64,000 bases of DNA from Labyrinthula sp. Ha (taxonomy: Eukaryota > Sar > Bigyra > Labyrinthulida > Labyrinthulaceae): NCBI GenBank assembly GCA_015227615.1, contig JAALGZ010000016.1, positions 558,001 to 622,000 on the forward strand, given 5' to 3'. The position numbers and the translations under genes were made by a program. The notes beneath the pieces were generated by a model. The model did no database searches and had not been told where the DNA came from. It worked only from the letters and a program-made list of their open reading frames with translations. Positions 1-47,842 of this stretch are shown one piece after another. Numbering within the stretch: the stretch's first letter is position 1; the number at the start of each line of letters is the position of its first letter.

Positions 1-3000
1 TCCACTGCAAAACTCAATAAGAAAAAGATTGCGTTAGCGATCTTCGCTAAATTGCCTAAATACATCTGGGTAGAGGCTAGCAGGCTTAGTTTGAATCCTG
101 CTTTAACCGATGTTGACCACGTGCGATTACAACAATATGTGCTGGAGTGTCTGCCTCCGCTGTGTGTAAGAAACGAGATGAAAAAACGAGTCAACTTTAA
201 GAAGATCCAGTTAGGAAAGTTCAAAGAAAGTGCTCCTATTGAGGTGAACGAGGTGAATACCAAGGGAGAGAGGAAACCACACTCTCATTTCAAGAAGCAA
301 TCTTCTAATGATGAACCAGACTTATGTAATCATTGCTGGTTTTATGGACATAGAAGCTTTAAGTGCTGGATGAGGTTAAAACTTATTAGGAATGGAAATA
401 AGAATCCATCCTCGCAGCCCAAACCAGATGGAGAGGTTTTAAGGAAGAGATTGCTAAAGTGGAAAGAGAATAAAAAGAAGGGCTGGAAGAGAAATTTTAA
501 GAAACCGGTCGAGAAGTCCACGTTTACATCCAATGAAGTGACGCCGGCTAATGAAGGCGCAGTTGAGGATGTAGAGACCGACATTATTGAAGTCGTTCCT
601 GCAGGATCGGTCGATGAGATATTTTTAAGTGAATGTACTGATGTAGCAAATGCAGAAGTGCGGGATGTAGCGGAAAATGAGATTAATCATGTCGAAGCTG
701 AACTTGTTTTAGAAACCAGAAAAGGTCCGATGGTGGTGGACGGTATTTTAGATTCTGGAGCTAGAAAAACCTCGGGGGCAAGGAATTTATTTGAAAAGTT
801 CTGCTGGAAGATAGAGGATATCAAGAGAAAGACATTTGTGAGAGTGGCCTCTGGGAATTTGTATCCCGTTTTTAAGATTGGTCATTTACTACCTTCAGTA
901 AGGATTCCAGGATTTGGAGATTATTCGCTGGGACCTGTGGCAGTGCTGCTAGTTGAACAAGTGAAGAACTGGACGAAACTTTTAATAGGAAAAGAGGTTC
1001 TAAAACTCCATGGTCTTGATCCTACGCAGATTTTAGTTCGACGATTAAGGAACACAGGAAATGGAAGATCTTCTAAACTAACTGAAAAGGTTGAGAAATC
1101 AGTGAAATCTTTCAAAGAAACATGTGAAGTCAATGAGTGTATTACAGTCGAAGGAGCTTATTTAGCGAACTGGTTCAAGAGCAAGGTTTTTGGTGACCTT
1201 GAATTTGATGTCGTCAATACAATGGCAATTAATCCACACGTTTTTAGCGAGCCTGGTATTGAGAATCCATTAGAGTTACAAAAAGGAATGGTAGAGGCAT
1301 TTGCAGTAGAAGAAAATAAAATAAGTTTTGAAGAAGGAGGTGCGTGGCCCGAGCCAGTGATATTTAATGCTAGACATGATGCAGAGCTAGAGGAGTTGAC
1401 TGGTGTCGGAGAAAATTTAGAAGTTACCAGAGAAGCAGATTTAATGAGATTGAAAGATTTGCTGAAAGGAAAATTAAAGGAAATACCTGCTCAAATATTT
1501 GGTGAAGATAAGAAGTTAAAAATGGAATTTGATGACTTGATTTTACACCATGTAGCCGCTTTTGGCGATGATTTATCCCCAACTCAATTATCTCTTCTAA
1601 AACCTATGAGATGTTCTTTAATGGAGGGAACATCAGTGGGAGTTTTTAATGCGATCGCCCTTGGTATCGAAAAAGAGGAGTTCATGAAGAAAAGAGTGGA
1701 CCAGATGATAAAAAATAAAATTGTTGAGGTTAATGATGACCCAACAACATGTATGAGAGCTTTTGTTGTTCCAAAAAAAGGGCCTAAAAAATACCGAATG
1801 GTGGTTGATTTCAGGCCATTAAATGCAGTTACGCAAAAGGTTGTTAATAACCTACCGAATATTGATCTACAGGTCGCTAAGATAAAAGGAAACACTATTT
1901 TTGGATCATTCGACCTGTTAAGCGGGTTTGATTATTTACCAACACATCATAACTCGCAACATTTATTTACCTTTGGAACACCTTGGGGTGTGTCTTACCC
2001 GTTTAGAGGAGCCCCCCAAGGTTGGTGTAATACCCCGTCTTTATTTTCTCAAAGGGTAATTACACATGTTTTGACACCTGCATCTCTTTGGCCTAATCAT
2101 GCTTTACAATGGATTGATGATACAGTTTTATTTGCATTGGATGTAAGAGCATACATGACTTTATTAAGGAGTTTTCTAAAGGCTATTATAGATAAGAGAT
2201 TGAGGCTAAATATAGGAAAATGTGACCTGATTGCTCAGAGTGCAGTATTTTGTGGGCACAAGTTGACAAAGGATGGTTATCGTTTAGATGACACTTATTT
2301 AAAAAAGTTAATGGAAAGACCAAAACCTACCTATGTGCATGAATTAGCACAGCTGATTTATTTAGGGAACTGGGTCTCAAAGATGTTACCGGGTTTTTCG
2401 GAGTTAAGAAAAAGAATGACCGGGGAGTTTAATATTTACGGAAGACTCAAGAAGTTAGAAAGAACAAAAGTACTCTTGGAATGGAGCGAGGAAATGAATC
2501 ATGCTTACGAAAAGTTAACGAAGGAGGTTAAATTGGCTTTCTCTAATACATTAGGCTACTACGATCAGAAGTTAGACCTGGTCTTATTTGTGGATGCTTC
2601 GGAATTTTACTGGAGTTATTTTATTTGTCAAACATCTGATGCAATTAAATTAGAATTTCCAATGGATGCTAACTATGATGTGATTGCCATGGCTTCAGGT
2701 ACGTTTAGAGATAGTTCCTTGAATTGGCATATTTCTTCGAAGGAGTTATTTCCAGTGGTGATTGCATCACAGAAGCATTCTTATTTTCTGAAATCAAATG
2801 AGAAGAAGAAGATTCTCTTTACGGATCACAAGAACCTATATTATATTTTGAATCCAATCAAAGCGTCTAGGAAGTCTTATTCTGAAAGGCTGACGCATTG
2901 GAGCTTGATTTTTCAAGACATTTGTTTAGAAGTACATCATATTCCTGGAGAACAGAATGTAGCTGCTGATATTTTATCTCGCTGGCTTAATCCTGAATTT

Positions 3001-3387
3001 GATAAGGTGGAAGCTGACGAAGTGTTAGTTGCAGTAGCAACTGTAGAACATTTTAATGTGCAGCATTTCTGGGAAAAAGTTGATGAAATTCATGCTGGTT
3101 TACGTAACATAGATTTTACATTGAAATATGGAGACGCCTGGCCCGAAATGGATGAATCATTTTGCTTAAATTTACAAAAGAAAGATCTAAAGTTCAAAGA
3201 AAATATTTTGAGAAGATATAAAAATAAGTTAGTGGTGACAAAAAGTTTGATTTTACCAGTGATTGTTCATACCCATCTACGCTTCAATCATGGGGCAGTG
3301 GATCAGGAAAAGAAATGGATTTCAGCTAATTATGTGATGCACTCTAAAGAAGTAAAAAAATATTTATGGAAGCTACGGAAAAATTAA
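1..3387 (+). CDS. Retrotransposon Gag-protease-RT-RNase H polyprotein, 5'-partial
   Basis: The frame is open from position 1, so the N-terminal about 173 codons seen in copy 2 lie outside the window. A CCHC zinc knuckle (C-x2-C-x4-H-x4-C) lies near 325-366. A retropepsin-like DSGA motif is near 751. The RT carries the GAPQGW block near 2010 and an IDD active site near 2116. RNase H shows its Asp near 2593, the SKEL glutamate near 2740 and the TDH aspartate near 2822. The frame ends with the first half of the integrase HHCC zinc finger, before its two cysteines, and terminates at a TAA. The rest of integrase continues in the -1 frame after an A7 run at 3354-3360. Compared with copy 2 the first visible codon is Ser instead of Cys. 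Confidence 0.93.
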   Translation, partial: STAKLNKKKIALAIFAKLPKYIWVEASRLSLNPALTDVDHVRLQQYVLECLPPLCVRNEMKKRVNFKKIQLGKFKESAPIEVNEVNTKGERKPHSHFKKQSSNDEPDLCNHCWFYGHRSFKCWMRLKLIRNGNKNPSSQPKPDGEVLRKRLLKWKENKKKGWKRNFKKPVEKSTFTSNEVTPANEGAVEDVETDIIEVVPAGSVDEIFLSECTDVANAEVRDVAENEINHVEAELVLETRKGPMVVDGILDSGARKTSGARNLFEKFCWKIEDIKRKTFVRVASGNLYPVFKIGHLLPSVRIPGFGDYSLGPVAVLLVEQVKNWTKLLIGKEVLKLHGLDPTQILVRRLRNTGNGRSSKLTEKVEKSVKSFKETCEVNECITVEGAYLANWFKSKVFGDLEFDVVNTMAINPHVFSEPGIENPLELQKGMVEAFAVEENKISFEEGGAWPEPVIFNARHDAELEELTGVGENLEVTREADLMRLKDLLKGKLKEIPAQIFGEDKKLKMEFDDLILHHVAAFGDDLSPTQLSLLKPMRCSLMEGTSVGVFNAIALGIEKEEFMKKRVDQMIKNKIVEVNDDPTTCMRAFVVPKKGPKKYRMVVDFRPLNAVTQKVVNNLPNIDLQVAKIKGNTIFGSFDLLSGFDYLPTHHNSQHLFTFGTPWGVSYPFRGAPQGWCNTPSLFSQRVITHVLTPASLWPNHALQWIDDTVLFALDVRAYMTLLRSFLKAIIDKRLRLNIGKCDLIAQSAVFCGHKLTKDGYRLDDTYLKKLMERPKPTYVHELAQLIYLGNWVSKMLPGFSELRKRMTGEFNIYGRLKKLERTKVLLEWSEEMNHAYEKLTKEVKLAFSNTLGYYDQKLDLVLFVDASEFYWSYFICQTSDAIKLEFPMDANYDVIAMASGTFRDSSLNWHISSKELFPVVIASQKHSYFLKSNEKKKILFTDHKNLYYILNPIKASRKSYSERLTHWSLIFQDICLEVHHIPGEQNVAADILSRWLNPEFDKVEADEVLVAVATVEHFNVQHFWEKVDEIHAGLRNIDFTLKYGDAWPEMDESFCLNLQKKDLKFKENILRRYKNKLVVTKSLILPVIVHTHLRFNHGAVDQEKKWISANYVMHSKEVKKYLWKLRKN
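3354..3360 (+). promoter_or_regulatory. Candidate -1 frameshift site, copy 1 (A7)
   Basis: Seven adenines are read in the zero frame as A-AAA-AAA. Slipping back one base leads straight into the frame that supplies the missing two cysteines of the integrase zinc finger and the DDE core. This sequence is a legitimate slippery heptamer. A one-base loss from an A8 run, real or from sequencing, would look the same. Confidence 0.5.
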
Positions 3388-3971
3388 GAAGCCAATGTTT
3401 ACATTGTCAACGTCCATCGAAAATAATAAGGAGACCTTTAGCGATTAATGAATTACCAAGTGAATGTAGAGCAGTTCTAATGTCAGATTATTTGTACATT
3501 TCACCAGAGGAAGGTTATGTGTTGACTTTAATAGATGCGTTATCAAGAGTTACTTTATTGAAGCAGTGTAAGAATGCCAATGCAACAAATGTCATGAATA
3601 TTTTATGGGAATGGCATTCTCACTATGATTTAGCTGATGATTTTATTCTACTATCTGACAAGGGTTCACATTACGTTAATGCAGTTGTAGATGCTTTTGT
3701 TAGGCAAAGCGGAGAAAGTCAGAAGTTCACGGTGGCTTATGCTCCCTACACTAATGGAGCCGCAGAAATACAAAATAAGCAGATTTTGAAGAATTTGAGA
3801 ACCTTACTTTCAGAATATAATTTGAAGGTTGAAGATTGGCCTGAGGTTTTAGTGCAGGTACAATGTTACCTTAATTCGAAGCCATTGAGAAGTAGAAATA
3901 ATCTTACACCCTCCAGATTTTGCTGGGTAAGAAACCTAGAAGCGATCCAGTGGGGCGAAAGCCAAATTTGA
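3366..3971 (+). CDS. Retrotransposon integrase core, copy 1 (-1 frame)
   Basis: This segment overlaps the upstream frame by 22 bases and is open from before the ATG at 3366, so it probably continues the polyprotein and does not start independently. It begins with the C-x2-C of the HHCC zinc finger (residues 11 and 14). The retroviral-type integrase triad is complete: Asp41, Asp98 and Glu134, with exactly 35 residues between the last two. It stops at a TGA just where the C-terminal integrase motif begins. That motif continues in the next -1 frame from 3920. The frame is identical to that of copy 2 at 10181-10786. With two frame changes needed to make a full integrase, translation of an active enzyme depends on recoding or on unseen intact copies. 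Confidence 0.9.
   Translation: MEATEKLRSQCLHCQRPSKIIRRPLAINELPSECRAVLMSDYLYISPEEGYVLTLIDALSRVTLLKQCKNANATNVMNILWEWHSHYDLADDFILLSDKGSHYVNAVVDAFVRQSGESQKFTVAYAPYTNGAAEIQNKQILKNLRTLLSEYNLKVEDWPEVLVQVQCYLNSKPLRSRNNLTPSRFCWVRNLEAIQWGESQI
3917..3921 (+). promoter_or_regulatory. Second frame break in integrase, copy 1 (T-run)
   Basis: Between zero-frame codons AGA TTT TGC the homologous integrase motif carries on in the -1 frame starting at 3920. No classical X-XXY-YYZ heptamer is present. One missing T in the T4 run (3918-3921) would restore a single frame, so a fixed deletion or a homopolymer error is at least as likely as programmed slippage. Confidence 0.4.
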
Positions 3972-5971
3972 AATTGACATCAATTCAAATGAGTGAACTT
4001 AAAGAAGTTTCGCTGGAGTTAGAAGGAAGAATAAGAGAGTACCAAGAAACGGCTTTTTCATTCGCTGAACGGTCAAGACAATATGCTAATGCTTTGTACA
4101 ATAAGAAATACAAACTAACTCCGATGCATTTCCATGTGGGAGAGTTTGTATTAGTCAGTAAACCAAAACGTGGTTCGAAGGTAAAACCTCAATGGACAGG
4201 ACCATTTCAGATCATTCAACAATTAGGGTCATATTTATATTTATTGAAGAATTTATGCGGGGATGAAGAAGAAGTACATGCATCTAGAATGATGTTTTAT
4301 GCTCCATCACACTTTTTACCTTCTGCAAAAACAAAGATTTGTTATTTAAATGATTCAGAAAAGCTTGAGATTAAGAAGTTGATTAAGATCAAGAAAAAGG
4401 ATGATGAATATTTTCTGTTAGTTCATTGGAGAGGATTTCCATTAGAAGAGTCGACATGGGAACCAGTACAACAATTATTTGAGGATTTGCCGAGTTTAGT
4501 GGTTGATTTTCTATTGAAGAATAAATTCAGTGGAATTAAAGCATGTCTAACCCGATTACGATTAGCAAATCCAGAAGCGGAAATATGGAGTGCAGATGAG
4601 TATAATGTAGATCTTTGTGATTTGCATCTTACTGACAAAGAATTAGATGATTTCTTGAGTTTCGAACCAGTCAGTCAGTTTATGATTCCCATGTTTAATT
4701 CGCTTTTACGATGGAAAAAAATCGAAGTTTACATATTGAAACAATGTATTTTGAAGTTTGGATTTTCTAAGTATGGGAAGTACGCTGAGTTTCTCAAGAA
4801 TAGGCCAAAAAGACAGATTTACAGTCAATTGCAGCGCCTGGTAGGTAAACAGGCCATTTCTGTTTACACGAATTTACGGCTTGATGTGGATGCATCACGA
4901 AAAGACAATAATAAATCTCGTGGGGCTAAGTATTTTATTGAGAAGGAGTTTAATGGAGAAACCCATTTATTTAAGTTACGAATCTTTACTGCCATGCGTT
5001 ATGCAAAAATGCATAGATTGAATACAGAACGAGCTGAAAAAGTTGATATAATGAAGTATTTTAATTGCAGCTCGGCTGATGGTATTGCACAGTTTATAAA
5101 GTTTATGGAAGAAAAAGGTGAAGTAGCATCCTTTCCTCTTGTAAATTGGTTTAATGTTGATAAAGAAGTGCAATGCTGGAAAAAGAAATTCAGGGAAATT
5201 AGCAGATTCGAAGCAGCAATGGCTAAGAAGAAAATAGAAGTTCTTAGGGCTGTTGATGCAAGAAGAGATGATTTGCAATGTGATAAATTGATGCCTGATT
5301 CTAAACATGGTTTTGATGTAAAAAGAACTAAATTGACAAATTTGTATGAGTTTAGAAAGGAGAATTTTATGATGCAGCATTGGATCATACATCCTAAGGT
5401 GAAGTTCTTCCATGGCGATGTAAATGATTTCATTAAAAAGTTTGATGGTGGTGCTTTTGAAGTTGTGCATTTGGATCCGCCGTATCGATTTATGGCAAAG
5501 AATCCAATTAGAGGGGCAGCTAATTTTTACGATACCATATCAGATCATGATTTAAGGAAATTGGATTTTACGAGACTAATGAAAAATACTATTGTCTTTC
5601 TTTGGACCTTTCCAAGTAAGAAGTCTTTAGCCATGGATATTTTCAAGAAAAACAATATTAAATACATGGATCACTTGTTGTGGATTAAACTTTCTGCTAA
5701 ATGGAAATTGCGATCCACGTTTGGTAAGCTTACTCAGAAGTGTAGTGAAGAACTACTAATTGGTGTCTATGGGAAGTTGCCAGATGTTTTGAAAAATAAG
5801 AACTTTGGTAAAGAATGTGTCTTCGCAGAAGTGGTAGGCAACAGCTGCAAACCGGAGAAGTTCTATGAAATTATTGAAGTGCGGTTTGAAAAGCAAGCTA
5901 AAAAGCTGGACCTCTTTAGCAGAAAAAATAATCTTCGTTTAGGATGGTTAGCTGTGGGGAACGAGCTCTAG
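3920..5971 (+). CDS. Integrase C-terminus, chromodomain, Myb-like and MT-A70 adenine methyltransferase, copy 1
   Basis: This frame completes the integrase tail (GKKPR motif at the start). It then carries a chromodomain near residues 155-205, recognised by the HWRGFPLEESTWEP core. A segment near residues 260-330 resembles a Myb/SANT DNA-binding helix set (regular W, FG, R..Q pattern). Residues about 490-650 match the MT-A70 family of SAM-dependent N6-adenine methyltransferases. They contain the catalytic DPPY at residues 519-522 (METTL3-like enzymes have DPPW), a CSEELLIGV block matching the family's C-terminal strand, and a KPEKFYEIIE motif typical of its end. The product would be the 3' end of the polyprotein. 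The acceptor (DNA or RNA) cannot be told from sequence. The start codon is uncertain, since the frame is probably entered by frameshifting. Confidence 0.85.
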   Translation: MLGKKPRSDPVGRKPNLKLTSIQMSELKEVSLELEGRIREYQETAFSFAERSRQYANALYNKKYKLTPMHFHVGEFVLVSKPKRGSKVKPQWTGPFQIIQQLGSYLYLLKNLCGDEEEVHASRMMFYAPSHFLPSAKTKICYLNDSEKLEIKKLIKIKKKDDEYFLLVHWRGFPLEESTWEPVQQLFEDLPSLVVDFLLKNKFSGIKACLTRLRLANPEAEIWSADEYNVDLCDLHLTDKELDDFLSFEPVSQFMIPMFNSLLRWKKIEVYILKQCILKFGFSKYGKYAEFLKNRPKRQIYSQLQRLVGKQAISVYTNLRLDVDASRKDNNKSRGAKYFIEKEFNGETHLFKLRIFTAMRYAKMHRLNTERAEKVDIMKYFNCSSADGIAQFIKFMEEKGEVASFPLVNWFNVDKEVQCWKKKFREISRFEAAMAKKKIEVLRAVDARRDDLQCDKLMPDSKHGFDVKRTKLTNLYEFRKENFMMQHWIIHPKVKFFHGDVNDFIKKFDGGAFEVVHLDPPYRFMAKNPIRGAANFYDTISDHDLRKLDFTRLMKNTIVFLWTFPSKKSLAMDIFKKNNIKYMDHLLWIKLSAKWKLRSTFGKLTQKCSEELLIGVYGKLPDVLKNKNFGKECVFAEVVGNSCKPEKFYEIIEVRFEKQAKKLDLFSRKNNLRLGWLAVGNEL

Positions 5972-5975
5972 TAAC

Positions 5976-5988
5976 AAGAATGGGGCAG
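5976..5988 (+). other. Polypurine-tract-like site upstream of shared LTR
   Basis: A purine-rich stretch with a GGGG core sits directly before the TG that opens the LTR and just after the last stop codon of the element. This is where the plus-strand primer of an LTR retrotransposon is expected. The tract is interrupted by T and C, so the call is positional. Confidence 0.5.
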
Positions 5989-6253
5989 TGTTAGTTCAAG
6001 TTTGAAATATATGGACTGAAATAAATTCTTATTACTAGCTGTTCAAATACTCTTGAAATATGAGTACCTTGTAATATAAGCGGTTTAAGCGAATTAAGAG
6101 TTTAAGAAAATACAAAAAGAAAACTTATAATTTTATATTTTACTCTACTTTTTGCACAGCAAACTACTTTGAGAACAAGCCGATACAGTCGTCCTTTTGA
6201 AAGTCCGTAGAATTTGTAGAAAGAAGTTTATTTTTGGACTATAAACGAATATT
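5989..6253 (+). repeat. Long terminal repeat shared by copies 1 and 2
   Basis: This 265-bp sequence recurs at 12804-13068 with two G-to-A differences (6071 and 6188). It begins with TG after the polypurine-like tract. Identity between the two copies stops exactly after 6253, where one copy continues into gag leader and the other into unrelated flank. It ends in ATT instead of the usual CA. An AATAAA-like signal and TATA-like strings occur inside, as expected for an LTR that drives and terminates transcription. It serves as 3' LTR of copy 1 and 5' LTR of copy 2. Confidence 0.85.
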
Positions 6254-6263: not shown

Positions 6264-6296
6264 CCCTGTGGCTTGATATTTTCAAAGATTTAGAGA

Positions 6297-9200
6297 ATGT
6301 CTGGAGTAGATCAAAACGAGCTTACGCGTCCTTTGAATCAGAAGCAGATGCTGGCTCTTTATGAAAGTATGCAGAAGACCTTGGATTCAACAAGAAGAGC
6401 TATAGAAGCTTTGCAGTTAAGTTCTAATGAAAAGCAATTAAGTAACATTACGCAGAATGGTGCGATGATTTGTCAGGATTTCAAGGTCAATGATTTAAAA
6501 GTTCTCGAAAGAAAGAATGTAGAGAAGTTTATCTATCAGTATGAGAGGCTGTCTTTACAACAGAAAAGAGATATTAACTTGACTCAATTCGTAGATTTGG
6601 ATCTTTTTATTCACTTACGACGACTAGATGTTACTAGAACTAATGAAGATCTTGTGGATTATTTAAAGATCCTATTGTTAGAAATGAAAGAGCAAGCTTT
6701 GGAGGAAGCCGAAGTGATGATCGCCAAACATGTGAAATACAACTTCAAACTAAGAGAGGAAGATGCGATAAAAATCCTTTTTAGTGAAGTGCAGGAGATC
6801 ATTAAGTTGCAACCATGCACTGCAAAACTCAATAAGAAAAAGATTGCGTTAGCGATCTTCGCTAAATTGCCTAAATACATCTGGGTAGAGGCTAGCAGGC
6901 TTAGTTTGAATCCTGCTTTAACCGATGTTGACCACGTGCGATTACAACAATATGTGCTGGAGTGTCTGCCTCCGCTGTGTGTAAGAAACGAGATGAAAAA
7001 ACGAGTCAACTTTAAGAAGATCCAGTTAGGAAAGTTCAAAGAAAGTGCTCCTATTGAGGTGAACGAGGTGAATACCAAGGGAGAGAGGAAACCACACTCT
7101 CATTTCAAGAAGCAATCTTCTAATGATGAACCAGACTTATGTAATCATTGCTGGTTTTATGGACATAGAAGCTTTAAGTGCTGGATGAGGTTAAAACTTA
7201 TTAGGAATGGAAATAAGAATCCATCCTCGCAGCCCAAACCAGATGGAGAGGTTTTAAGGAAGAGATTGCTAAAGTGGAAAGAGAATAAAAAGAAGGGCTG
7301 GAAGAGAAATTTTAAGAAACCGGTCGAGAAGTCCACGTTTACATCCAATGAAGTGACGCCGGCTAATGAAGGCGCAGTTGAGGATGTAGAGACCGACATT
7401 ATTGAAGTCGTTCCTGCAGGATCGGTCGATGAGATATTTTTAAGTGAATGTACTGATGTAGCAAATGCAGAAGTGCGGGATGTAGCGGAAAATGAGATTA
7501 ATCATGTCGAAGCTGAACTTGTTTTAGAAACCAGAAAAGGTCCGATGGTGGTGGACGGTATTTTAGATTCTGGAGCTAGAAAAACCTCGGGGGCAAGGAA
7601 TTTATTTGAAAAGTTCTGCTGGAAGATAGAGGATATCAAGAGAAAGACATTTGTGAGAGTGGCCTCTGGGAATTTGTATCCCGTTTTTAAGATTGGTCAT
7701 TTACTACCTTCAGTAAGGATTCCAGGATTTGGAGATTATTCGCTGGGACCTGTGGCAGTGCTGCTAGTTGAACAAGTGAAGAACTGGACGAAACTTTTAA
7801 TAGGAAAAGAGGTTCTAAAACTCCATGGTCTTGATCCTACGCAGATTTTAGTTCGACGATTAAGGAACACAGGAAATGGAAGATCTTCTAAACTAACTGA
7901 AAAGGTTGAGAAATCAGTGAAATCTTTCAAAGAAACATGTGAAGTCAATGAGTGTATTACAGTCGAAGGAGCTTATTTAGCGAACTGGTTCAAGAGCAAG
8001 GTTTTTGGTGACCTTGAATTTGATGTCGTCAATACAATGGCAATTAATCCACACGTTTTTAGCGAGCCTGGTATTGAGAATCCATTAGAGTTACAAAAAG
8101 GAATGGTAGAGGCATTTGCAGTAGAAGAAAATAAAATAAGTTTTGAAGAAGGAGGTGCGTGGCCCGAGCCAGTGATATTTAATGCTAGACATGATGCAGA
8201 GCTAGAGGAGTTGACTGGTGTCGGAGAAAATTTAGAAGTTACCAGAGAAGCAGATTTAATGAGATTGAAAGATTTGCTGAAAGGAAAATTAAAGGAAATA
8301 CCTGCTCAAATATTTGGTGAAGATAAGAAGTTAAAAATGGAATTTGATGACTTGATTTTACACCATGTAGCCGCTTTTGGCGATGATTTATCCCCAACTC
8401 AATTATCTCTTCTAAAACCTATGAGATGTTCTTTAATGGAGGGAACATCAGTGGGAGTTTTTAATGCGATCGCCCTTGGTATCGAAAAAGAGGAGTTCAT
8501 GAAGAAAAGAGTGGACCAGATGATAAAAAATAAAATTGTTGAGGTTAATGATGACCCAACAACATGTATGAGAGCTTTTGTTGTTCCAAAAAAAGGGCCT
8601 AAAAAATACCGAATGGTGGTTGATTTCAGGCCATTAAATGCAGTTACGCAAAAGGTTGTTAATAACCTACCGAATATTGATCTACAGGTCGCTAAGATAA
8701 AAGGAAACACTATTTTTGGATCATTCGACCTGTTAAGCGGGTTTGATTATTTACCAACACATCATAACTCGCAACATTTATTTACCTTTGGAACACCTTG
8801 GGGTGTGTCTTACCCGTTTAGAGGAGCCCCCCAAGGTTGGTGTAATACCCCGTCTTTATTTTCTCAAAGGGTAATTACACATGTTTTGACACCTGCATCT
8901 CTTTGGCCTAATCATGCTTTACAATGGATTGATGATACAGTTTTATTTGCATTGGATGTAAGAGCATACATGACTTTATTAAGGAGTTTTTTAAAGGCTA
9001 TTATAGATAAGAGATTGAGGCTAAATATAGGAAAATGTGACCTGATTGCTCAGAGTGCAGTATTTTGTGGGCACAAGTTGACAAAGGATGGTTATCGTTT
9101 AGATGACACTTATTTAAAAAAGTTAATGGAAAGACCAAAACCTACCTATGTGCATGAATTAGCACAGCTGATTTATTTAGGGAACTGGGTCTCAAAGATG

Positions 9201-10202
9201 TTACCGGGTTTTTCGGAGTTAAGAAAAAGAATGACCGGGGAGTTTAATATTTACGGAAGACTCAAGAAGTTAGAAAGAACAAAAGTACTCTTGGAATGGA
9301 GCGAGGAAATGAATCATGCTTACGAAAAGTTAACGAAGGAGGTTAAATTGGCTTTCTCTAATACATTAGGCTACTACGATCAGAAGTTAGACCTGGTCTT
9401 ATTTGTGGATGCTTCGGAATTTTACTGGAGTTATTTTATTTGTCAAACATCTGATGCAATTAAATTAGAATTTCCAATGGATGCTAACTATGATGTGATT
9501 GCCATGGCTTCAGGTACGTTTAGAGATAGTTCCTTGAATTGGCATATTTCTTCGAAGGAGTTATTTCCAGTGGTGATTGCATCACAGAAGCATTCTTATT
9601 TTCTGAAATCAAATGAGAAGAAGAAGATTCTCTTTACGGATCACAAGAACCTATATTATATTTTGAATCCAATCAAAGCGTCTAGGAAGTCTTATTCTGA
9701 AAGGCTGACGCATTGGAGCTTGATTTTTCAAGACATTTGTTTAGAAGTACATCATATTCCTGGAGAACAGAATGTAGCTGCTGATATTTTATCTCGCTGG
9801 CTTAATCCTGAATTTGATAAGGTGGAAGCTGACGAAGTGTTAGTTGCAGTAGCAACTGTAGAACATTTTAATGTGCAGCATTTCTGGGAAAAAGTTGATG
9901 AAATTCATGCTGGTTTACGTAACATAGATTTTACATTGAAATATGGAGACGCCTGGCCCGAAATGGATGAATCATTTTGCTTAAATTTACAAAAGAAAGA
10001 TCTAAAGTTCAAAGAAAATATTTTGAGAAGATATAAAAATAAGTTAGTGGTGACAAAAAGTTTGATTTTACCAGTGATTGTTCATACCCATCTACGCTTC
10101 AATCATGGGGCAGTGGATCAGGAAAAGAAATGGATTTCAGCTAATTATGTGATGCACTCTAAAGAAGTAAAAAAATATTTATGGAAGCTACGGAAAAATT
10201 AA
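6297..10202 (+). CDS. Retrotransposon Gag-protease-RT-RNase H polyprotein, copy 2
   Basis: An ATG at 6297, 43 bases after the LTR, opens a 1301-residue frame. The first 280 residues are a helical Gag-like region. A CCHC zinc knuckle begins at Cys282. A retropepsin-like DSGA motif has its Asp at residue 424. The RT domain includes the fingers and palm, the GAPQGW block and an IDD active site (Asp879, Asp880; most relatives have YVDD or YLDD). RNase H starts with Asp1038 and has its conserved Glu, Asp and His/Asp residues downstream. The frame ends at the integrase zinc finger after the two histidines. Gag and Pol are in one frame here, with no Gag stop codon, so the Gag:Pol ratio must be set otherwise. 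Copy 1 differs by one silent C/T change (8991). Confidence 0.95.
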   Translation: MSGVDQNELTRPLNQKQMLALYESMQKTLDSTRRAIEALQLSSNEKQLSNITQNGAMICQDFKVNDLKVLERKNVEKFIYQYERLSLQQKRDINLTQFVDLDLFIHLRRLDVTRTNEDLVDYLKILLLEMKEQALEEAEVMIAKHVKYNFKLREEDAIKILFSEVQEIIKLQPCTAKLNKKKIALAIFAKLPKYIWVEASRLSLNPALTDVDHVRLQQYVLECLPPLCVRNEMKKRVNFKKIQLGKFKESAPIEVNEVNTKGERKPHSHFKKQSSNDEPDLCNHCWFYGHRSFKCWMRLKLIRNGNKNPSSQPKPDGEVLRKRLLKWKENKKKGWKRNFKKPVEKSTFTSNEVTPANEGAVEDVETDIIEVVPAGSVDEIFLSECTDVANAEVRDVAENEINHVEAELVLETRKGPMVVDGILDSGARKTSGARNLFEKFCWKIEDIKRKTFVRVASGNLYPVFKIGHLLPSVRIPGFGDYSLGPVAVLLVEQVKNWTKLLIGKEVLKLHGLDPTQILVRRLRNTGNGRSSKLTEKVEKSVKSFKETCEVNECITVEGAYLANWFKSKVFGDLEFDVVNTMAINPHVFSEPGIENPLELQKGMVEAFAVEENKISFEEGGAWPEPVIFNARHDAELEELTGVGENLEVTREADLMRLKDLLKGKLKEIPAQIFGEDKKLKMEFDDLILHHVAAFGDDLSPTQLSLLKPMRCSLMEGTSVGVFNAIALGIEKEEFMKKRVDQMIKNKIVEVNDDPTTCMRAFVVPKKGPKKYRMVVDFRPLNAVTQKVVNNLPNIDLQVAKIKGNTIFGSFDLLSGFDYLPTHHNSQHLFTFGTPWGVSYPFRGAPQGWCNTPSLFSQRVITHVLTPASLWPNHALQWIDDTVLFALDVRAYMTLLRSFLKAIIDKRLRLNIGKCDLIAQSAVFCGHKLTKDGYRLDDTYLKKLMERPKPTYVHELAQLIYLGNWVSKMLPGFSELRKRMTGEFNIYGRLKKLERTKVLLEWSEEMNHAYEKLTKEVKLAFSNTLGYYDQKLDLVLFVDASEFYWSYFICQTSDAIKLEFPMDANYDVIAMASGTFRDSSLNWHISSKELFPVVIASQKHSYFLKSNEKKKILFTDHKNLYYILNPIKASRKSYSERLTHWSLIFQDICLEVHHIPGEQNVAADILSRWLNPEFDKVEADEVLVAVATVEHFNVQHFWEKVDEIHAGLRNIDFTLKYGDAWPEMDESFCLNLQKKDLKFKENILRRYKNKLVVTKSLILPVIVHTHLRFNHGAVDQEKKWISANYVMHSKEVKKYLWKLRKN
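10169..10175 (+). promoter_or_regulatory. Candidate -1 frameshift site, copy 2 (A7)
   Basis: Same A-AAA-AAA heptamer as at 3354-3360, in the same position relative to the integrase zinc finger. Slippage by -1 joins the two halves of the HHCC finger. Confidence 0.5.
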
Positions 10203-10786
10203 GAAGCCAATGTTTACATTGTCAACGTCCATCGAAAATAATAAGGAGACCTTTAGCGATTAATGAATTACCAAGTGAATGTAGAGCAGTTCTAATGTCA
10301 GATTATTTGTACATTTCACCAGAGGAAGGTTATGTGTTGACTTTAATAGATGCGTTATCAAGAGTTACTTTATTGAAGCAGTGTAAGAATGCCAATGCAA
10401 CAAATGTCATGAATATTTTATGGGAATGGCATTCTCACTATGATTTAGCTGATGATTTTATTCTACTATCTGACAAGGGTTCACATTACGTTAATGCAGT
10501 TGTAGATGCTTTTGTTAGGCAAAGCGGAGAAAGTCAGAAGTTCACGGTGGCTTATGCTCCCTACACTAATGGAGCCGCAGAAATACAAAATAAGCAGATT
10601 TTGAAGAATTTGAGAACCTTACTTTCAGAATATAATTTGAAGGTTGAAGATTGGCCTGAGGTTTTAGTGCAGGTACAATGTTACCTTAATTCGAAGCCAT
10701 TGAGAAGTAGAAATAATCTTACACCCTCCAGATTTTGCTGGGTAAGAAACCTAGAAGCGATCCAGTGGGGCGAAAGCCAAATTTGA
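10181..10786 (+). CDS. Retrotransposon integrase core, copy 2 (-1 frame)
   Basis: This frame is identical to the copy 1 frame at 3366-3971. It supplies Cys11 and Cys14 of the zinc finger and the catalytic triad Asp41, Asp98 and Glu134 (D,D-35-E). The catalytic core looks intact, which argues that the element was recently active despite the frame breaks on either side. The ATG at 10181 is probably not used as a start; entry by -1 slippage at the A7 run six bases upstream is more plausible. Confidence 0.9.
   Translation: MEATEKLRSQCLHCQRPSKIIRRPLAINELPSECRAVLMSDYLYISPEEGYVLTLIDALSRVTLLKQCKNANATNVMNILWEWHSHYDLADDFILLSDKGSHYVNAVVDAFVRQSGESQKFTVAYAPYTNGAAEIQNKQILKNLRTLLSEYNLKVEDWPEVLVQVQCYLNSKPLRSRNNLTPSRFCWVRNLEAIQWGESQI
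10732..10736 (+). promoter_or_regulatory. Second frame break in integrase, copy 2 (T-run)
   Basis: Same T4 context as 3917-3921. The integrase C-terminal motif continues in the -1 frame at 10735 and there is no canonical slippery heptamer. Confidence 0.4.
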
Positions 10787-12786
10787 AATTGACATCAATT
10801 CAAATGAGTGAACTTAAAGAAGTTTCGCTGGAGTTAGAAGGAAGAATAAGAGAGTACCAAGAAACGGCTTTTTCATTCGCTGAACGGTCAAGACAATATG
10901 CTAATGCTTTGTACAATAAGAAATACAAACTAACTCCGATGCATTTCCATGTGGGAGAGTTTGTATTAGTCAGTAAACCAAAACGTGGTTCGAAGGTAAA
11001 ACCTCAATGGACAGGACCATTTCAGATCATTCAACAATTAGGGTCATATTTATATTTATTGAAGAATTTATGCGGGGATGAAGAAGAAGTACATGCATCT
11101 AGAATGATGTTTTATGCTCCATCACACTTTTTACCTTCTGCAAAAACAAAGATTTGTTATTTAAATGATTCAGAAAAGCTTGAGATTAAGAAGTTGATTA
11201 AGATCAAGAAAAAGGATGATGAATATTTTCTGTTAGTTCATTGGAGAGGATTTCCATTAGAAGAGTCGACATGGGAACCAGTACAACAATTATTTGAGGA
11301 TTTGCCGAGTTTAGTGGTTGATTTTCTATTGAAGAATAAATTCAGTGGAATTAAAGCATGTCTAACCCGATTACGATTAGCAAATCCAGAAGCGGAAATA
11401 TGGAGTGCAGATGAGTATAATGTAGATCTTTGTGATTTGCATCTTACTGACAAAGAATTAGATGATTTCTTGAGTTTCGAACCAGTCAGTCAGTTTATGA
11501 TTCCCATGTTTAATTCGCTTTTACGATGGAAAAAAATCGAAGTTTACATATTGAAACAATGTATTTTGAAGTTTGGATTTTCTAAGTATGGGAAGTACGC
11601 TGAGTTTCTCAAGAATAGGCCAAAAAGACAGATTTACAGTCAATTGCAGCGCCTGGTAGGTAAACAGGCCATTTCTGTTTACACGAATTTACGGCTTGAT
11701 GTGGATGCATCACGAAAAGACAATAATAAATCTCGTGGGGCTAAGTATTTTATTGAGAAGGAGTTTAATGGAGAAACCCATTTATTTAAGTTACGAATCT
11801 TTACTGCCATGCGTTATGCAAAAATGCATAGATTGAATACAGAACGAGCTGAAAAAGTTGATATAATGAAGTATTTTAATTGCAGCTCGGCTGATGGTAT
11901 TGCACAGTTTATAAAGTTTATGGAAGAAAAAGGTGAAGTAGCATCCTTTCCTCTTGTAAATTGGTTTAATGTTGATAAAGAAGTGCAATGCTGGAAAAAG
12001 AAATTCAGGGAAATTAGCAGATTCGAAGCAGCAATGGCTAAGAAGAAAATAGAAGTTCTTAGGGCTGTTGATGCAAGAAGAGATGATTTGCAATGTGATA
12101 AATTGATGCCTGATTCTAAACATGGTTTTGATGTAAAAAGAACTAAATTGACAAATTTGTATGAGTTTAGAAAGGAGAATTTTATGATGCAGCATTGGAT
12201 CATACATCCTAAGGTGAAGTTCTTCCATGGCGATGTAAATGATTTCATTAAAAAGTTTGATGGTGGTGCTTTTGAAGTTGTGCATTTGGATCCGCCGTAT
12301 CGATTTATGGCAAAGAATCCAATTAGAGGGGCAGCTAATTTTTACGATACCATATCAGATCATGATTTAAGGAAATTGGATTTTACGAGACTAATGAAAA
12401 ATACTATTGTCTTTCTTTGGACCTTTCCAAGTAAGAAGTCTTTAGCCATGGATATTTTCAAGAAAAACAATATTAAATACATGGATCACTTGTTGTGGAT
12501 TAAACTTTCTGCTAAATGGAAATTGCGATCCACGTTTGGTAAGCTTACTCAGAAGTGTAGTGAAGAACTACTAATTGGTGTCTATGGGAAGTTGCCAGAT
12601 GTTTTGAAAAATAGGAACTTTGGTAAAGAATGTGTCTTCGCAGAAGTGGTAGGCAACAGCTGCAAACCGGAGAAGTTCTATGAAATTATTGAAGTGCGGT
12701 TTGAAAAGCAAGCTAAAAAGCTGGACCTCTTTAGCAGAAAAAATAATCTTCGTTTAGGATGGTTAGCTGTGGGGAACGAGCTCTAG
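10735..12786 (+). CDS. Integrase C-terminus, chromodomain, Myb-like and MT-A70 adenine methyltransferase, copy 2
   Basis: Layout is the same as the copy 1 frame at 3920-5971: integrase tail, chromodomain (about residues 155-205), Myb/SANT-like segment (about 260-330), and MT-A70 methyltransferase (about 490-650) with DPPY at residues 519-522. The only difference found is Lys627 to Arg (A to G at 12614), near the C-terminal edge of the methyltransferase and conservative. The long linker between chromodomain and methyltransferase has no stop codons or low-complexity decay, so the whole extension appears to be under selection or newly copied. Chromodomains in such elements steer integration to marked chromatin. 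A linked adenine methyltransferase could mark the target, the element's cDNA or its RNA, but that is inference. Confidence 0.87.
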   Translation: MLGKKPRSDPVGRKPNLKLTSIQMSELKEVSLELEGRIREYQETAFSFAERSRQYANALYNKKYKLTPMHFHVGEFVLVSKPKRGSKVKPQWTGPFQIIQQLGSYLYLLKNLCGDEEEVHASRMMFYAPSHFLPSAKTKICYLNDSEKLEIKKLIKIKKKDDEYFLLVHWRGFPLEESTWEPVQQLFEDLPSLVVDFLLKNKFSGIKACLTRLRLANPEAEIWSADEYNVDLCDLHLTDKELDDFLSFEPVSQFMIPMFNSLLRWKKIEVYILKQCILKFGFSKYGKYAEFLKNRPKRQIYSQLQRLVGKQAISVYTNLRLDVDASRKDNNKSRGAKYFIEKEFNGETHLFKLRIFTAMRYAKMHRLNTERAEKVDIMKYFNCSSADGIAQFIKFMEEKGEVASFPLVNWFNVDKEVQCWKKKFREISRFEAAMAKKKIEVLRAVDARRDDLQCDKLMPDSKHGFDVKRTKLTNLYEFRKENFMMQHWIIHPKVKFFHGDVNDFIKKFDGGAFEVVHLDPPYRFMAKNPIRGAANFYDTISDHDLRKLDFTRLMKNTIVFLWTFPSKKSLAMDIFKKNNIKYMDHLLWIKLSAKWKLRSTFGKLTQKCSEELLIGVYGKLPDVLKNRNFGKECVFAEVVGNSCKPEKFYEIIEVRFEKQAKKLDLFSRKNNLRLGWLAVGNEL

Positions 12787-12803
12787 TAACAAGAATGGGG
12801 CAG

Positions 12804-13068
12804 TGTTAGTTCAAGTTTGAAATATATGGACTGAAATAAATTCTTATTACTAGCTGTTCAAATACTCTTGAAATATGAGTACCTTATAATATAAGCGGTT
12901 TAAGCGAATTAAGAGTTTAAGAAAATACAAAAAGAAAACTTATAATTTTATATTTTACTCTACTTTTTGCACAGCAAACTACTTTGAGAACAAGCCGATA
13001 CAATCGTCCTTTTGAAAGTCCGTAGAATTTGTAGAAAGAAGTTTATTTTTGGACTATAAACGAATATT
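12804..13068 (+). repeat. 3' LTR of retrotransposon copy 2
   Basis: This 265-bp repeat of 5989-6253 differs by two bases (12886 A, 13003 A). The first change creates a TATAAT string. It is preceded by the same polypurine-like tract at 12791-12803. Beyond 13068 the sequence no longer matches the internal leader. Confidence 0.85.
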
Positions 13069-16000
13069 CCATAATTGGAAATTTTGGCTTAATATATGAT
13101 GTATAAATTTCCATGTTAGGATTCCGAGAATTTTTGTAAAATGCGAATGATCGGTGACTAGATAAACAATATCATTGGTAAGTTAGGGTTCTCAATTATA
13201 TTTGAAGTTCGAGCATAGAATACAGGAAATTCTATTATGTTCGGTATAAACCATTAATCATATTGACAAGAAGACACACTCTTTCCCTTGGTTTGACAGT
13301 TTTACAGTACTCTATCCTAATATCCTTGCATAATGCAACCATATAGTTGATTATCGTTATTAATAATTTAAACAAAACGTAAAACCCTTTTGTTAGCTCA
13401 TCTAAGGTACAATCAATTAAAATATAAATTCAATAAGCCAGTTTTCGTTACGGTGTGTCTACATAGTTTTAAATCAAAATCTTCGTAGGTACCGTGTTGA
13501 TGGTGTTTGCATCTTACCGAATGCCTTTGGCCTTTTATTCTTGGACCGCGATGGAACCCTACAATGCCCTTTTCACAATATAACCCAACCTTAAAGAAGA
13601 TCTGGTTAAACACCATTAAACTACCTGAACAATTATTTGCCTCTCATCAGTGCTTAGGAAGAATATACGAAAAAGAAATGATTTCAGGCAATCGCGTCAA
13701 TTTATCTGCCTGGCTATGGCAACGGAACCAAGAATCACAAAACAAGGGAACAAAATATAGACTACTACTTTTACTCCTAAACAAACGATGAAACCACCAG
13801 TGGTTCTAAGAACACCTATCTAAACTCAACCTAACTTCGTCATCCAACATAGAATCTTCAATGTGATGTATTCTCTGCCCAGTCAAACATATTTCAATAA
13901 GAACACTATTGTAGACAAGCTATTCCAATTCAAAATCTTCTTTCTATCTTTAAAATGGAAAGTAACTTGCAAGACCTTCCTTCTCTGGCTGAAATAGGCT
14001 GACTCTAATTGGAAGTTTAAACTCTAGTATTCTAAAAAAGCTTCTATTGTTCCTGCCCAGGTTATTATTAACTATGACTAAAAATATCTCACAAATGATG
14101 ATACTAAAGCTGTGTTTAAATCATCAGAGAGCTAAAATTCTATTCCCAGAAGATACAATTATAGTTCTCGAGGTAAAATTTCAGGATTAATGTCTTAGCT
14201 TCTCGCAAATGGTTTAATAGCTTGTATCTTCTAATGTCTGATATACTAGAGTGTCTGGGGGTAGATATCCAATGATTTTCTACTTTGTTAACCCATAAGT
14301 GAGAAAAATGAGAAGTTCTCTTAAATTATATTGTGTTTTCCCCCAGATTTCTGATAATTTTCTGGACTAATAAGTGCTGTTGGTTCCTCTAGTTCAAGAC
14401 AAAGCGGAACAAACAAAGTTCTATTATGTGACCCTAATAACTACGTATCCCCTTTATTTAGAAATAGTATGGTGAAATCAAATTTCACCAAGTATTATCC
14501 TAACTAATCATAAAATTTACCTATACGAATACCTTCGACTGTAGCGAAGTTCTTTTATTATATGTTGCTATTAATTGTGGTCGCTTTATGCATGTTCTTG
14601 TGTGTTTCTATTTCCTTGGATACTCACTACTCTAGTAACTTGTATCTCTCGTAATTAAATTCGATCTGAAGAAACTCTTAAGAATAGTTCTTCTAACTGC
14701 TCCTTCATCTAGATGGCAATACTTTGACTTATGATTTACACTACATAAATGATCCACAGTGTTCGCTCCTTCTAAACCCCTCCCAAAATTCTTTGTCTTT
14801 GCATGTTCTGCTATAGAGACATGATTCTCTCTCTGATCCTCAGTAATTACAGTTAAATTGTACCTGCGACCTTAACTTAAAATCAGTAAACATTTCTAAG
14901 CTTTTTTTCTTACTAGCTCTATGCTGATCAGGAAGTTGACTATCTATATTTATATCAGAATATGAGCATTTAACTTTACACATTTTCACAACTCCTTATG
15001 CGATTGCTTTATATTCCTGACTTACTTTTAGTTAGCTTATCGTCTTTAGATAGCGCTATCTCATACCTGAAGGTTCTAGAAAGAGCACCCTATGACAGCT
15101 GCAGGATATAGAGGCCTACAGATTTCAGTAGAGATTCTCAGAAATGAGAACTTTTTCTTTCAATACAATATATTGTTATCAGGAATAATTTAGCCTAAGA
15201 AATAAATTTTCTTAAGGCATAACTGTTATAAAGTGGAAACTAGTTTCTTACTTATTTACACCAACCCAGACCTTAATATTCTATGTCAAAGGGATTTTCA
15301 ACATTTTATCACTTTCACTCATTTCATTAAAGTTTACGGCTTTTAATGACACAAAATAAGTTTTAATCACCTAGTAATGCAATTTTGTCTTAATCTGCAT
15401 CTCTTCCCGGTCATAGAAATCCTTTGATCTAAGGTGCAGACATGCTTTTACTTTCTTAGGATTACTCGATCTCTACAAGCACTATTCTTTAACCTCGTAT
15501 TCAAGAGAACTATTATGGTTTGGTCTCGAATTCAAGGGCGTCTATTTGTTAAGTAACCAAGCATTTATGATCCAAAGGCCATTAGTATTATATCTTTGGT
15601 ATTTTAGTCCAGCAAGTATGTGTCAACAAGCTGTCGCTTATATTTTATGCCTTTTATATTTGTCAAATAATCACAAGATATTATGACTAATATTACATGA
15701 AAATACTTACAACTCCACCTACCTATTTATCATGGTCAAAACATAATGGATTTAAGCGCTTAAGAAATATTATGAGAGTTTTCCCCATTCATCATATAAT
15801 TCACTTCCGGCTAGCTTTCTGAAATTTTTAGTTGGAAATTTATTTTGGAGCATATTGGTGAAAAGGCATCTTTCTCTTCATATAAATATATACTCAAGTG
15901 AAAAACTAGAAATCAGTTTTATTTTCAATGTCCTTACTCAATAGACTACACTAGTCTACAGCAAAAATAGAGCTTATACCTCCTGTCGTATTGATGTCAA

Positions 16001-46353: not shown

Positions 46354-46410
46354 CCCTTGAAACTGTTTTACTCTTATCTTATTCTATTGTGTACTTGCCG
46401 TTAAACATTT

Positions 46411-47842
46411 ATGGTGACACAGGAGGATTTTGTTTCCGATGAATTAGTTATTCTGACACAGAGTATACTCGTAGTAACCTCGGGTCTCCTGACAGGATTT
46501 CTTACAGTTCAGAAGTTTGCAGGTAGGTGTTCAAATGAAGTGATTTACGTATCAGCTGTAACTACTATAAATTATGGCAGTAAGATTCTGGCAGGGTATG
46601 GATTGACTTGGGTAAAGATAGAAGAAGGCAAAGAAGTACCTCTAGGAAGATATTTTTCTTGGTTATTGACTTGTCCTGTAATGTTAATGCAGTGGATGAA
46701 ACTTCATAGCAGTGTCGGGTTGAGAATAAAAGATGAAGAGGAAAGAACGATTGTTATACTTGATCAAGTCATGATCGTTTGTGCTACGTTCGGCGCAATT
46801 TCAACAGGTTTTCTGAAATGGTTTTGTTTCTTAACTGGAATTTTTCATGCTTATTTTCTCTTCTTCAAAATTGTAATGATCACAAAATTTAACCTAAAAA
46901 ACTTTGTTCCCAAAGGTCGGCTTCCGGTATTTTTTTTCGATTGAATCAGACTTTTAGGTTGTTTTGATGACCATGTTGATGCTTTCCTCATGGGCTACCT
47001 TTCCTTTATTTTGGGTTCTTGGTCCAGCAGGTGTACGAGTAGTGGGAAAAAATGTGGACATGGTTGCGGGAACACTTGGAGATCTCACTTCGAAGAATAT
47101 CTTTGGTTTTGTCGCTTGGTATTGTAGATGGAATTATGCATATGTTGAGAAAGATATATATGGAAATATTCTACGAGATAAGATTAATGCTAAAGATACT
47201 CCAGATGCAGAGCATGGATTAAGTGATATTGAAGTGAATAATGCAAAGAGAAGAAGAAAGAACGTGCTAGTTCTAAGCTCAAGAGTTACGTTTATAAAAA
47301 CTATGATGCTGATGTTTGAAAATATAAATGCTGATCTCATCAGCGTGTTTACGTATTTTTCTTGTGCTTTTTATTATAGAGTAAAAGATGCTAAGAATAG
47401 AATGGCAATGTATGCAGTGACCCATTTCGATGCCATTATTGTTGCACCAGCAATGATGAAACAGAGAGAGAGAGATGAGTTGAAATCATTTGCTCGCTAT
47501 GTTTCGTCACCTCCTTACAAGGTTCCTGTATTGGGAATGTACTTTGATCTGGACCAGCCGAAAGAAGAACCTGGGTGCTGTTTGCATGGTGTCGTTTCTA
47601 AGCCATTTGACGAAAGTGCCTTGCAAGATGTGTTGTTGGAATGGAGGCTAACTGCGATGTTGTGGAAAAGGCTCTCCGAAAGCTTAGAAGCAATGGAAGC
47701 ACGAAATGAAGTAGATGAACCAAAAACGGATCCTAAACTTGAGTCCCAGCTGGAGAGTAAATGGACTAATTTGAAGAATGCGACAATGAAAAGAAAAGGT
47801 GGAGTTACTTTTGGGCAAAAAATTCTACCAGGAAAAAAGTAG
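46411..47842 (+). CDS. Channelrhodopsin with C-terminal receiver-like domain (2 exons)
   Basis: Exons 46411-46926 and 46958-47842, with a 31-nt intron, give 466 residues. Seven helices span residues 10-230. Helix C RYFSWLLTCPVM and helix G GDLTSKNIFGF are diagnostic, with retinal Schiff-base Lys218, Asp214 (BR Asp212) and Arg80. Cys88 and Asp118 align with the DC pair of ChR2 (Cys128, Asp156), which marks a channelrhodopsin rather than a pump. Helix F SWATFPLFWVLGPAG also matches ChR2. The counterion position (ChR2 Glu123) is Ser83 and helix-B Glu90 is Thr51, as expected of anion-conducting forms. Residues 272-400 resemble a response-regulator receiver: beta-1 VLVLSS, beta-3 FDAIIVAP, beta-5 VVSKPF with Lys387. 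The acidic pocket and phosphoacceptor Asp are replaced (Ser279/280, Ala335), so it cannot be phosphorylated classically. Likely a light-gated channel of the plasma or eyespot membrane. It starts 57 bp after the POLE stop. Confidence 0.9.

Follow-up and report, generated by a model that had tools for sequence, protein, structure and literature searches.

The first 13 kb of a 64,000-nucleotide stretch of the Labyrinthula sp. Ha genome (contig JAALGZ010000016.1, positions 558,001 to 622,000 of the forward strand; 'the window' denotes this whole stretch) consist of two tandem copies of a long terminal repeat (LTR) retrotransposon of Ty3 order. Judged by sequence and predicted fold, one frame of this element joins a histone-reader fold, a p1-type Myb-like domain and an AMT1-like methyltransferase of the MT-A70 family. 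By analogy with the eukaryotic writer of N6-methyladenine (6mA) in DNA, the p1-methyltransferase tail probably (at a rough probability of 0.6) methylates adenines in the element's own complementary DNA (cDNA) or at its insertion site, holding new copies in permissive chromatin.

The methyltransferase domain of the downstream copy (copy B; 12271..12780, + strand; residues 519-688 of the frame starting at 10717) aligns with MT-A70 (PF05063) over the full profile (1-172 of 172, E 6.4e-21, 75.5 bits against a curated cut-off of 23.9), and that of copy A (5456-5965) was matched in a genome-wide profile search. The initial annotation, made from the letters of the window, had proposed an MT-A70 enzyme inside an LTR retrotransposon. 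This proposal stands: LTRs and a target-site duplication enclose the gene, and the motifs it named, DPPY (12289..12300, +, in copy B; 5474-5485 in copy A), CSEELLIGV and KPEKFYEIIE, occur in that order in both copies. The best match in PDB was MTA1 (AMT1) of the Tetrahymena 6mA writer MTA1c, to which the window sequence is far nearer than to METTL3; MTA9 scored 1e-5 in the same comparison. The predicted fold, suggested as a check on the annotation, is also best matched by MTA1, and 12 of the 13 S-adenosylmethionine (SAM)-binding and catalytic positions are kept in the window copy, the remaining one being changed from W to Y. A protein search with the window methyltransferase returned 17 matches (lengths 379-1206) with no element among them, and the named ones were all AMT1-like proteins of Kickxellomycotina fungi, of about 400 amino acids (aa).

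Between the chromodomain (11182..11322, +, in copy B, residues 156-202, PF00385 E 1.8e-7; 4367-4507 in copy A by position) and the methyltransferase lies a domain that the annotation had missed (about 11527..11730, +, in copy B; 4712-4915 in copy A). Its best match, in sequence as in predicted fold, is p1, the Myb-like protein of the MTA1 complex, and the match extends beyond the Myb fold; a generic Myb domain was rejected. As for the DNA-binding lysines of p1 (K44, K46 and K47 in our own count), the alignment shows K44 and K47 in the window sequence but no K46, and other element families vary. In MTA1c, according to the available part of PMC9852454, MTA1 is catalytic, p1 together with MTA9 aids DNA binding, and the N-terminal helix of MTA1 joins p1 and p2. 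The element resembles this writer (AMT1-AMT7-p1-p2 of Tetrahymena and other AMT1-bearing eukaryotes) in its AMT1-like catalytic domain with SAM residues and in its p1-type Myb with the extension. It differs in that both parts stand in one retrotransposon frame behind integrase and chromodomain, in that no MTA9 and p2 parts were seen in the element, in the DPPY of the window where AMT1 has a strict DPPW, and in its place in the trees, where element sequences stand apart from the cellular AMT1 and p1 groups.

Copies A and B show 6 differences over 7080 aligned positions (99.9% identical). The LTR common to both (5989..6250, +; 3' of A and 5' of B) starts with TGTT, measures 262 bp with its end trimmed by the target-site duplication and does not end in the usual CA. 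With 1.1 kb upstream of the window taken into the comparison, there are three LTRs in all: the shared one and the one upstream of the window differ at 0 of 265 aligned bases, and the 3' LTR of copy B (12804..13065, +) shows 2 differences in 265 from each of the other two. A single 5-bp duplication, ATTCC, flanks the whole array (13066..13070, +, repeated just before the upstream LTR; one exact 5-mer, with 17 end positions tried). The methyltransferase gene lies inside the element, because the three LTRs and this one duplication surround the array. Both copies reported initially are thus real but, since they share an LTR, are not two independent insertions; the tandem pair arose by one insertion or by later LTR-LTR duplication.

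The frame for reverse transcriptase (RT) and RNase H (Pfam; 6294..10202, +, in copy B; 1-3387, in part, in copy A) contains a protease-like LDSGA motif recognised by eye. It is followed by an integrase core frame (rve; 10163..10786, +; 3348-3971 in copy A), shifted relative to both neighbours, whose match in copy B (E 2.8e-6, 28 bits) is below the Pfam cut-off of 32.6. The C-terminal frame with chromodomain, p1-Myb and MT-A70 (10717..12786, +; 3902-5971 in copy A) is 689 aa long in either copy. The methyltransferase therefore stands after integrase and chromodomain, as originally described, and ends just before the LTR, last in the pol frame; a purine-rich stretch adjoining the LTR (12791..12803, +; 5976-5988 in copy A) was labelled by eye as a putative polypurine tract. 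LTRs, a short target duplication and the succession of RT, RNase H and integrase, the last read from four long frames elsewhere in the genome, identify the element as Ty3/gypsy in order. Its chromodomain makes it a candidate for the chromovirus lineage supposed in the annotation.

A profile search of the organism's own 50.8-Mb assembly gave 354 MT-A70 candidates, and 150 were scored, the host AMT1 being one of them. All 150 exceed the Pfam cut-off, p1-Myb lies upstream on the same strand at 103, and frames of at least 1000 aa occur at 53 (two with a stop inside the match) and of at least 2000 aa at 19; a number of the scored places carry stops. The parasites' AMT1-like domains number more than 100, against one cellular AMT1 found. 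The finding is not due to chance, and an assembly artefact, named at the outset as a possible refutation, is very unlikely, because many loci and many other families of such elements exist in the genome. At the DNA level, 13 of 16 genome matches of the window methyltransferase region, its own two copies among them, reach 94% identity or more; since one close match (C88 near 1021123) sits in a 2164-aa frame, relatives without the frame breaks of the window exist.

A set of 20 long loci and 19 short methyltransferase stretches was retrieved from the assembly. Four long frames (2107-2660 aa) unite RT, RNase H, integrase and MT-A70, three of them with a chromodomain (Pfam, E 0.01; some chromodomain and integrase matches are below the curated cut-off). 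Over the 20 frames, several of them partial, the same threshold gave MT-A70 in 20, RNase H and rve in 18 each, RVT_1 in 15, Chromo in 15 (some below the curated cut-off) and Myb in 6. An element-length protein search with L019 returned six matches, all EukProt entries; P0018 is 100% identical in the region to L019, and the final 20 residues of P0023 are those of the L028 frame. We read these entries, on their sequence, as coming from the same genome or a near one. In L022, L025 and L028 an LDSGA-like protease motif is found after p1-Myb and before MT-A70 (in L021 and L024 it is in an upstream frame), with a Pfam RVP match at this site in L025 just below cut-off; in these three the protease seems to have been relocated behind the integrase.

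In a 57-row methyltransferase tree (37 element rows, with 7 near-identical rows left out; this tree and the next were built without AMT6/7, AMT2/5 and METTL4), the cellular AMT1 sequences form a clade of their own (93/87), which none of the 37 element rows enters. A single element clade was not rejected (approximately unbiased test, p-AU 0.439), yet only 18% of the 200 bootstrap trees contained it. A second tree combined 22 of the 44 element rows with 12 phage MT-A70 rows as outgroup, drawn from 204 MT-A70 relatives in IMG/VR of which 80 loci were kept. The AMT1 clade (95/96) again lacks element rows and the elements fall on the eukaryote side (100/99), while their branch order relative to METTL3/14 is not fixed; neither an element plus AMT1 clade (p-AU 0.377) nor a single element clade (0.464, yet in 0% of bootstrap trees) was rejected. 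The element enzyme lies outside the cellular AMT1 clade and is therefore AMT1-like, not an AMT1 orthologue; the tree with METTL3/14 and AMT1 envisaged earlier thus upholds a place among eukaryotic enzymes, but not one within AMT1. Phage or bacterial origin was rejected, since a 100/99 branch divides the 12 phage rows from every element and eukaryotic sequence. So was a recent acquisition of the AMT1 that the host has today: this free-standing gene (L008, 327 aa) groups with labyrinthulomycete and Blastocystis AMT1, not with the elements, and its nearest named proteins, among the best 120 of 641 matches, are from Mucochytrium quahogii and Hondaea (65%).

For 14 elements the RT and methyltransferase trees have a deep split in common (RT 100/99, methyltransferase 87/85) and most inner groups too; L024, with an RT fragment of 185 aa, was left out of the RT tree. 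In the p1 tree 15 element rows make up one side of a 96/95 branch and the same split recurs (90/96, 91/90), with weak inner branches. The ratio of nonsynonymous to synonymous substitution (dN/dS) for the pair L015/L016 is 0.063 in the methyltransferase, 0.087 in p1-Myb, 0.038 in RT, 0.034 in integrase and 0.285 in the linker. L010/L011, of a family with DPAW as catalytic motif, give 0.156 for the methyltransferase and 0.072 for integrase, and L015/L012 give 0.272 for the methyltransferase on few changes; the methyltransferase estimates rest on these three low-dS pairs. L019/L027 gave 0.265 at a dS of 2.1, and in five wider pairs most domains have saturated dS values, with methyltransferases still 43-75% identical. 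Because dN/dS is low in the close pairs, the methyltransferase is constrained, somewhat less than the replication enzymes but by a similar order of magnitude; this holds for the DPAW family too. That the tail is a passive relic, a host gene picked up accidentally and in decay, is hardly credible: the two frame breaks of the window copies and the stops at scored places would fit decay, but stand against the 53 long frames, the low ratios and the deep split shared with RT. As the RT, p1 and methyltransferase trees share this split and close pairs are under purifying selection, we infer one old capture of both p1 and methyltransferase, maintained ever since; the trees are compatible with this but fall short of proof.

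DPAW replaces DPPW in all eight rows of one element group (L002, L003, L005, L006, L007, L009, L010 and L011). This group, still under purifying selection, may have either a variant active site or the role of a non-catalytic partner.

Past the encoding of the domains, every step of the proposed function is inferred. The element would produce a protein with integrase, chromodomain, p1 and AMT1-like enzyme; this relative of the 6mA writer, encoded in a single frame, would methylate adenines (in ApT, by analogy with AMT1); its target would be the element's new cDNA or the landing site; and 6mA there would favour expression, i.e., permissive and not silent chromatin. In the available part of a survey of 18 unicellular eukaryotes (PMC12695648), AMT1-dependent 6mA marks transcriptionally permissive regions with histone H3 lysine 4 trimethylation (H3K4me3), and whether it causes or follows transcription is left open. 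The best interpretation of the chain, given its order of integrase, chromodomain, p1 and AMT1-like enzyme, is therefore a read-write device. More tentatively, at a little short of even odds, the lineage may have captured the catalytic and DNA-binding subunits of the 6mA writer, joined a histone reader to them, and come to give every new copy an active-chromatin mark.

The marking of cDNA or insertion site, one of the functions raised in the initial annotation, is thus favoured, and two others, an RNA target and self-silencing, rank low. Methylation of the element's own RNA in a METTL3-like manner (N6-methyladenosine, m6A), affecting packaging, translation or stability, appears improbable, and a METTL3-type writer was rejected as first choice on the nearness of the sequence to MTA1. 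The DNA-writer partner p1 is in the same frame, and the Pfam matches over the 20 frames include no RNA-binding or METTL14-like partner domain. In a six-frame genome search with introns unspliced (150 of 354 and 150 of 199 candidates scored), no METTL3 or METTL14 match was better than host AMT1, and the host may, on this search, lack an mRNA m6A writer. DNA is preferred to RNA as target because of the AMT1 kinship, the p1 partner and this negative search. Self-silencing or hiding, in which self-methylation would silence the element and lessen the harm it does, has a parallel in the DNA methyltransferases of dinoflagellate and charophyte retrotransposons, described in the available part of PMC5890265 as methylating CG de novo; it is very improbable for an AMT1-type enzyme, whose 6mA accompanies H3K4me3 and transcription in the species studied in PMC12695648.

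The main rival to adenine methylation is targeting without catalysis, which is possible because motif-altered families exist: the chromo-p1-methyltransferase tail would dock to the host AMT1/AMT7 complex or read its chromatin, steering integration to permissive regions. Several observations weigh against a writing enzyme. The catalytic motif is altered in 12 of 44 element rows, and DPAW, DPPG or a loss of N370/E371 is seen in families that have conserved the rest of the domain; two frame shifts at the integrase interrupt the coding sequence of the window copies, with frame overlaps at 10163-10202 and 10717-10786. The tail also sits after the integrase, as in other chromodomain elements, and host p1b itself has Agenet/Tudor reader domains. 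Against targeting, DPP[WY] is kept in 32 of the 44 rows (DPPW in 25, DPPY in 7; L018, its domain cut by a stop, left out of the counts), the catalytic D is found in 16 of 16 rows of the residue alignment, though the larger motif count has N in L037 and G in L041, and the window copy retains the SAM and catalytic positions given above. We regard targeting alone as rather unlikely, and adenine methylation by the tail as the better account.

Retrotransposon cytosine methyltransferases are known. The literature matches listed, which covered few subscription papers and preprints, described no retrotransposon with an MT-A70 or p1 domain, and none that combines a eukaryotic 6mA writer with the DNA-binding subunit of that writer. 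The comparisons that follow draw on the available parts of the papers cited. Long interspersed nuclear and DIRS elements of the dinoflagellate Symbiodinium and charophyte elements with cytosine methyltransferases (PMC5890265) likewise carry a DNA methyltransferase of host origin, for which retrotranscribed DNA has been proposed as substrate; the charophyte one is Ty3/gypsy (PMC6338049). Unlike them, the present element has an adenine-N6 enzyme of MT-A70 class and has captured the enzyme's DNA-binding partner too. DIRS elements with a Dam-like N6-adenine methyltransferase (PMC6338049, PMC5890265) share the principle of an adenine methyltransferase on a retroelement, but that enzyme is of bacterial type, whereas here it is of eukaryotic AMT1 type in an integrase element. 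The ParB-methyltransferase of Sola1-1_Ec32 (PMC12477816) combines DNA binding and an N6-adenine/N4-cytosine methyltransferase in one chain, but belongs to a DNA transposon, has prokaryote-type domains and is a separate gene on the opposite strand. An orchid Ty3/Gypsy element (PMC9289625) is a Ty3-type element with an adenine-methylation enzyme; that enzyme, however, is an RNA m6A demethylase, i.e., an eraser, in an additional open reading frame.

MT-A70 families were called relatively static in the eukaryote-wide survey, as far as its available text goes (PMC12695648), and the more than 100 element domains represent a hidden expansion against this picture. With the element one can test directly if 6mA itself opens chromatin or only follows in the wake of transcription, and its natural fusion of p1 and AMT1 can serve structural studies and 6mA tools. 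If our proposal is true, a parasite edits the epigenome of its host, writing an active-chromatin mark on its own DNA; a parasite profiting from 6mA would reveal a selective value of the mark. If the read-write reading holds as well, retrotransposons could write much of the genome's 6mA.

Two free-standing host p1 genes (L029 and L030) were found in the stretches read. The one at L030:1327-2481 (C1 near 1284476) has C-terminal Agenet/Tudor reader domains, a p1-reader fusion that parallels the chromodomain-p1 of the element and the PHD reader borne by ichthyosporean p1 (PMC12695648, available part). Only two C5 cytosine methyltransferase places were found in the host genome.

Elsewhere in the window, a microbial-type rhodopsin is encoded at 46405-46944 (PF01036 E 4.8e-13) and directly followed on the same strand by a second long frame (46958-47842); the two are perhaps one gene with a signalling tail. 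A further long open frame (61429-63999) runs off the window and resembles, by eye, an HtrA/PDZ-type protease.
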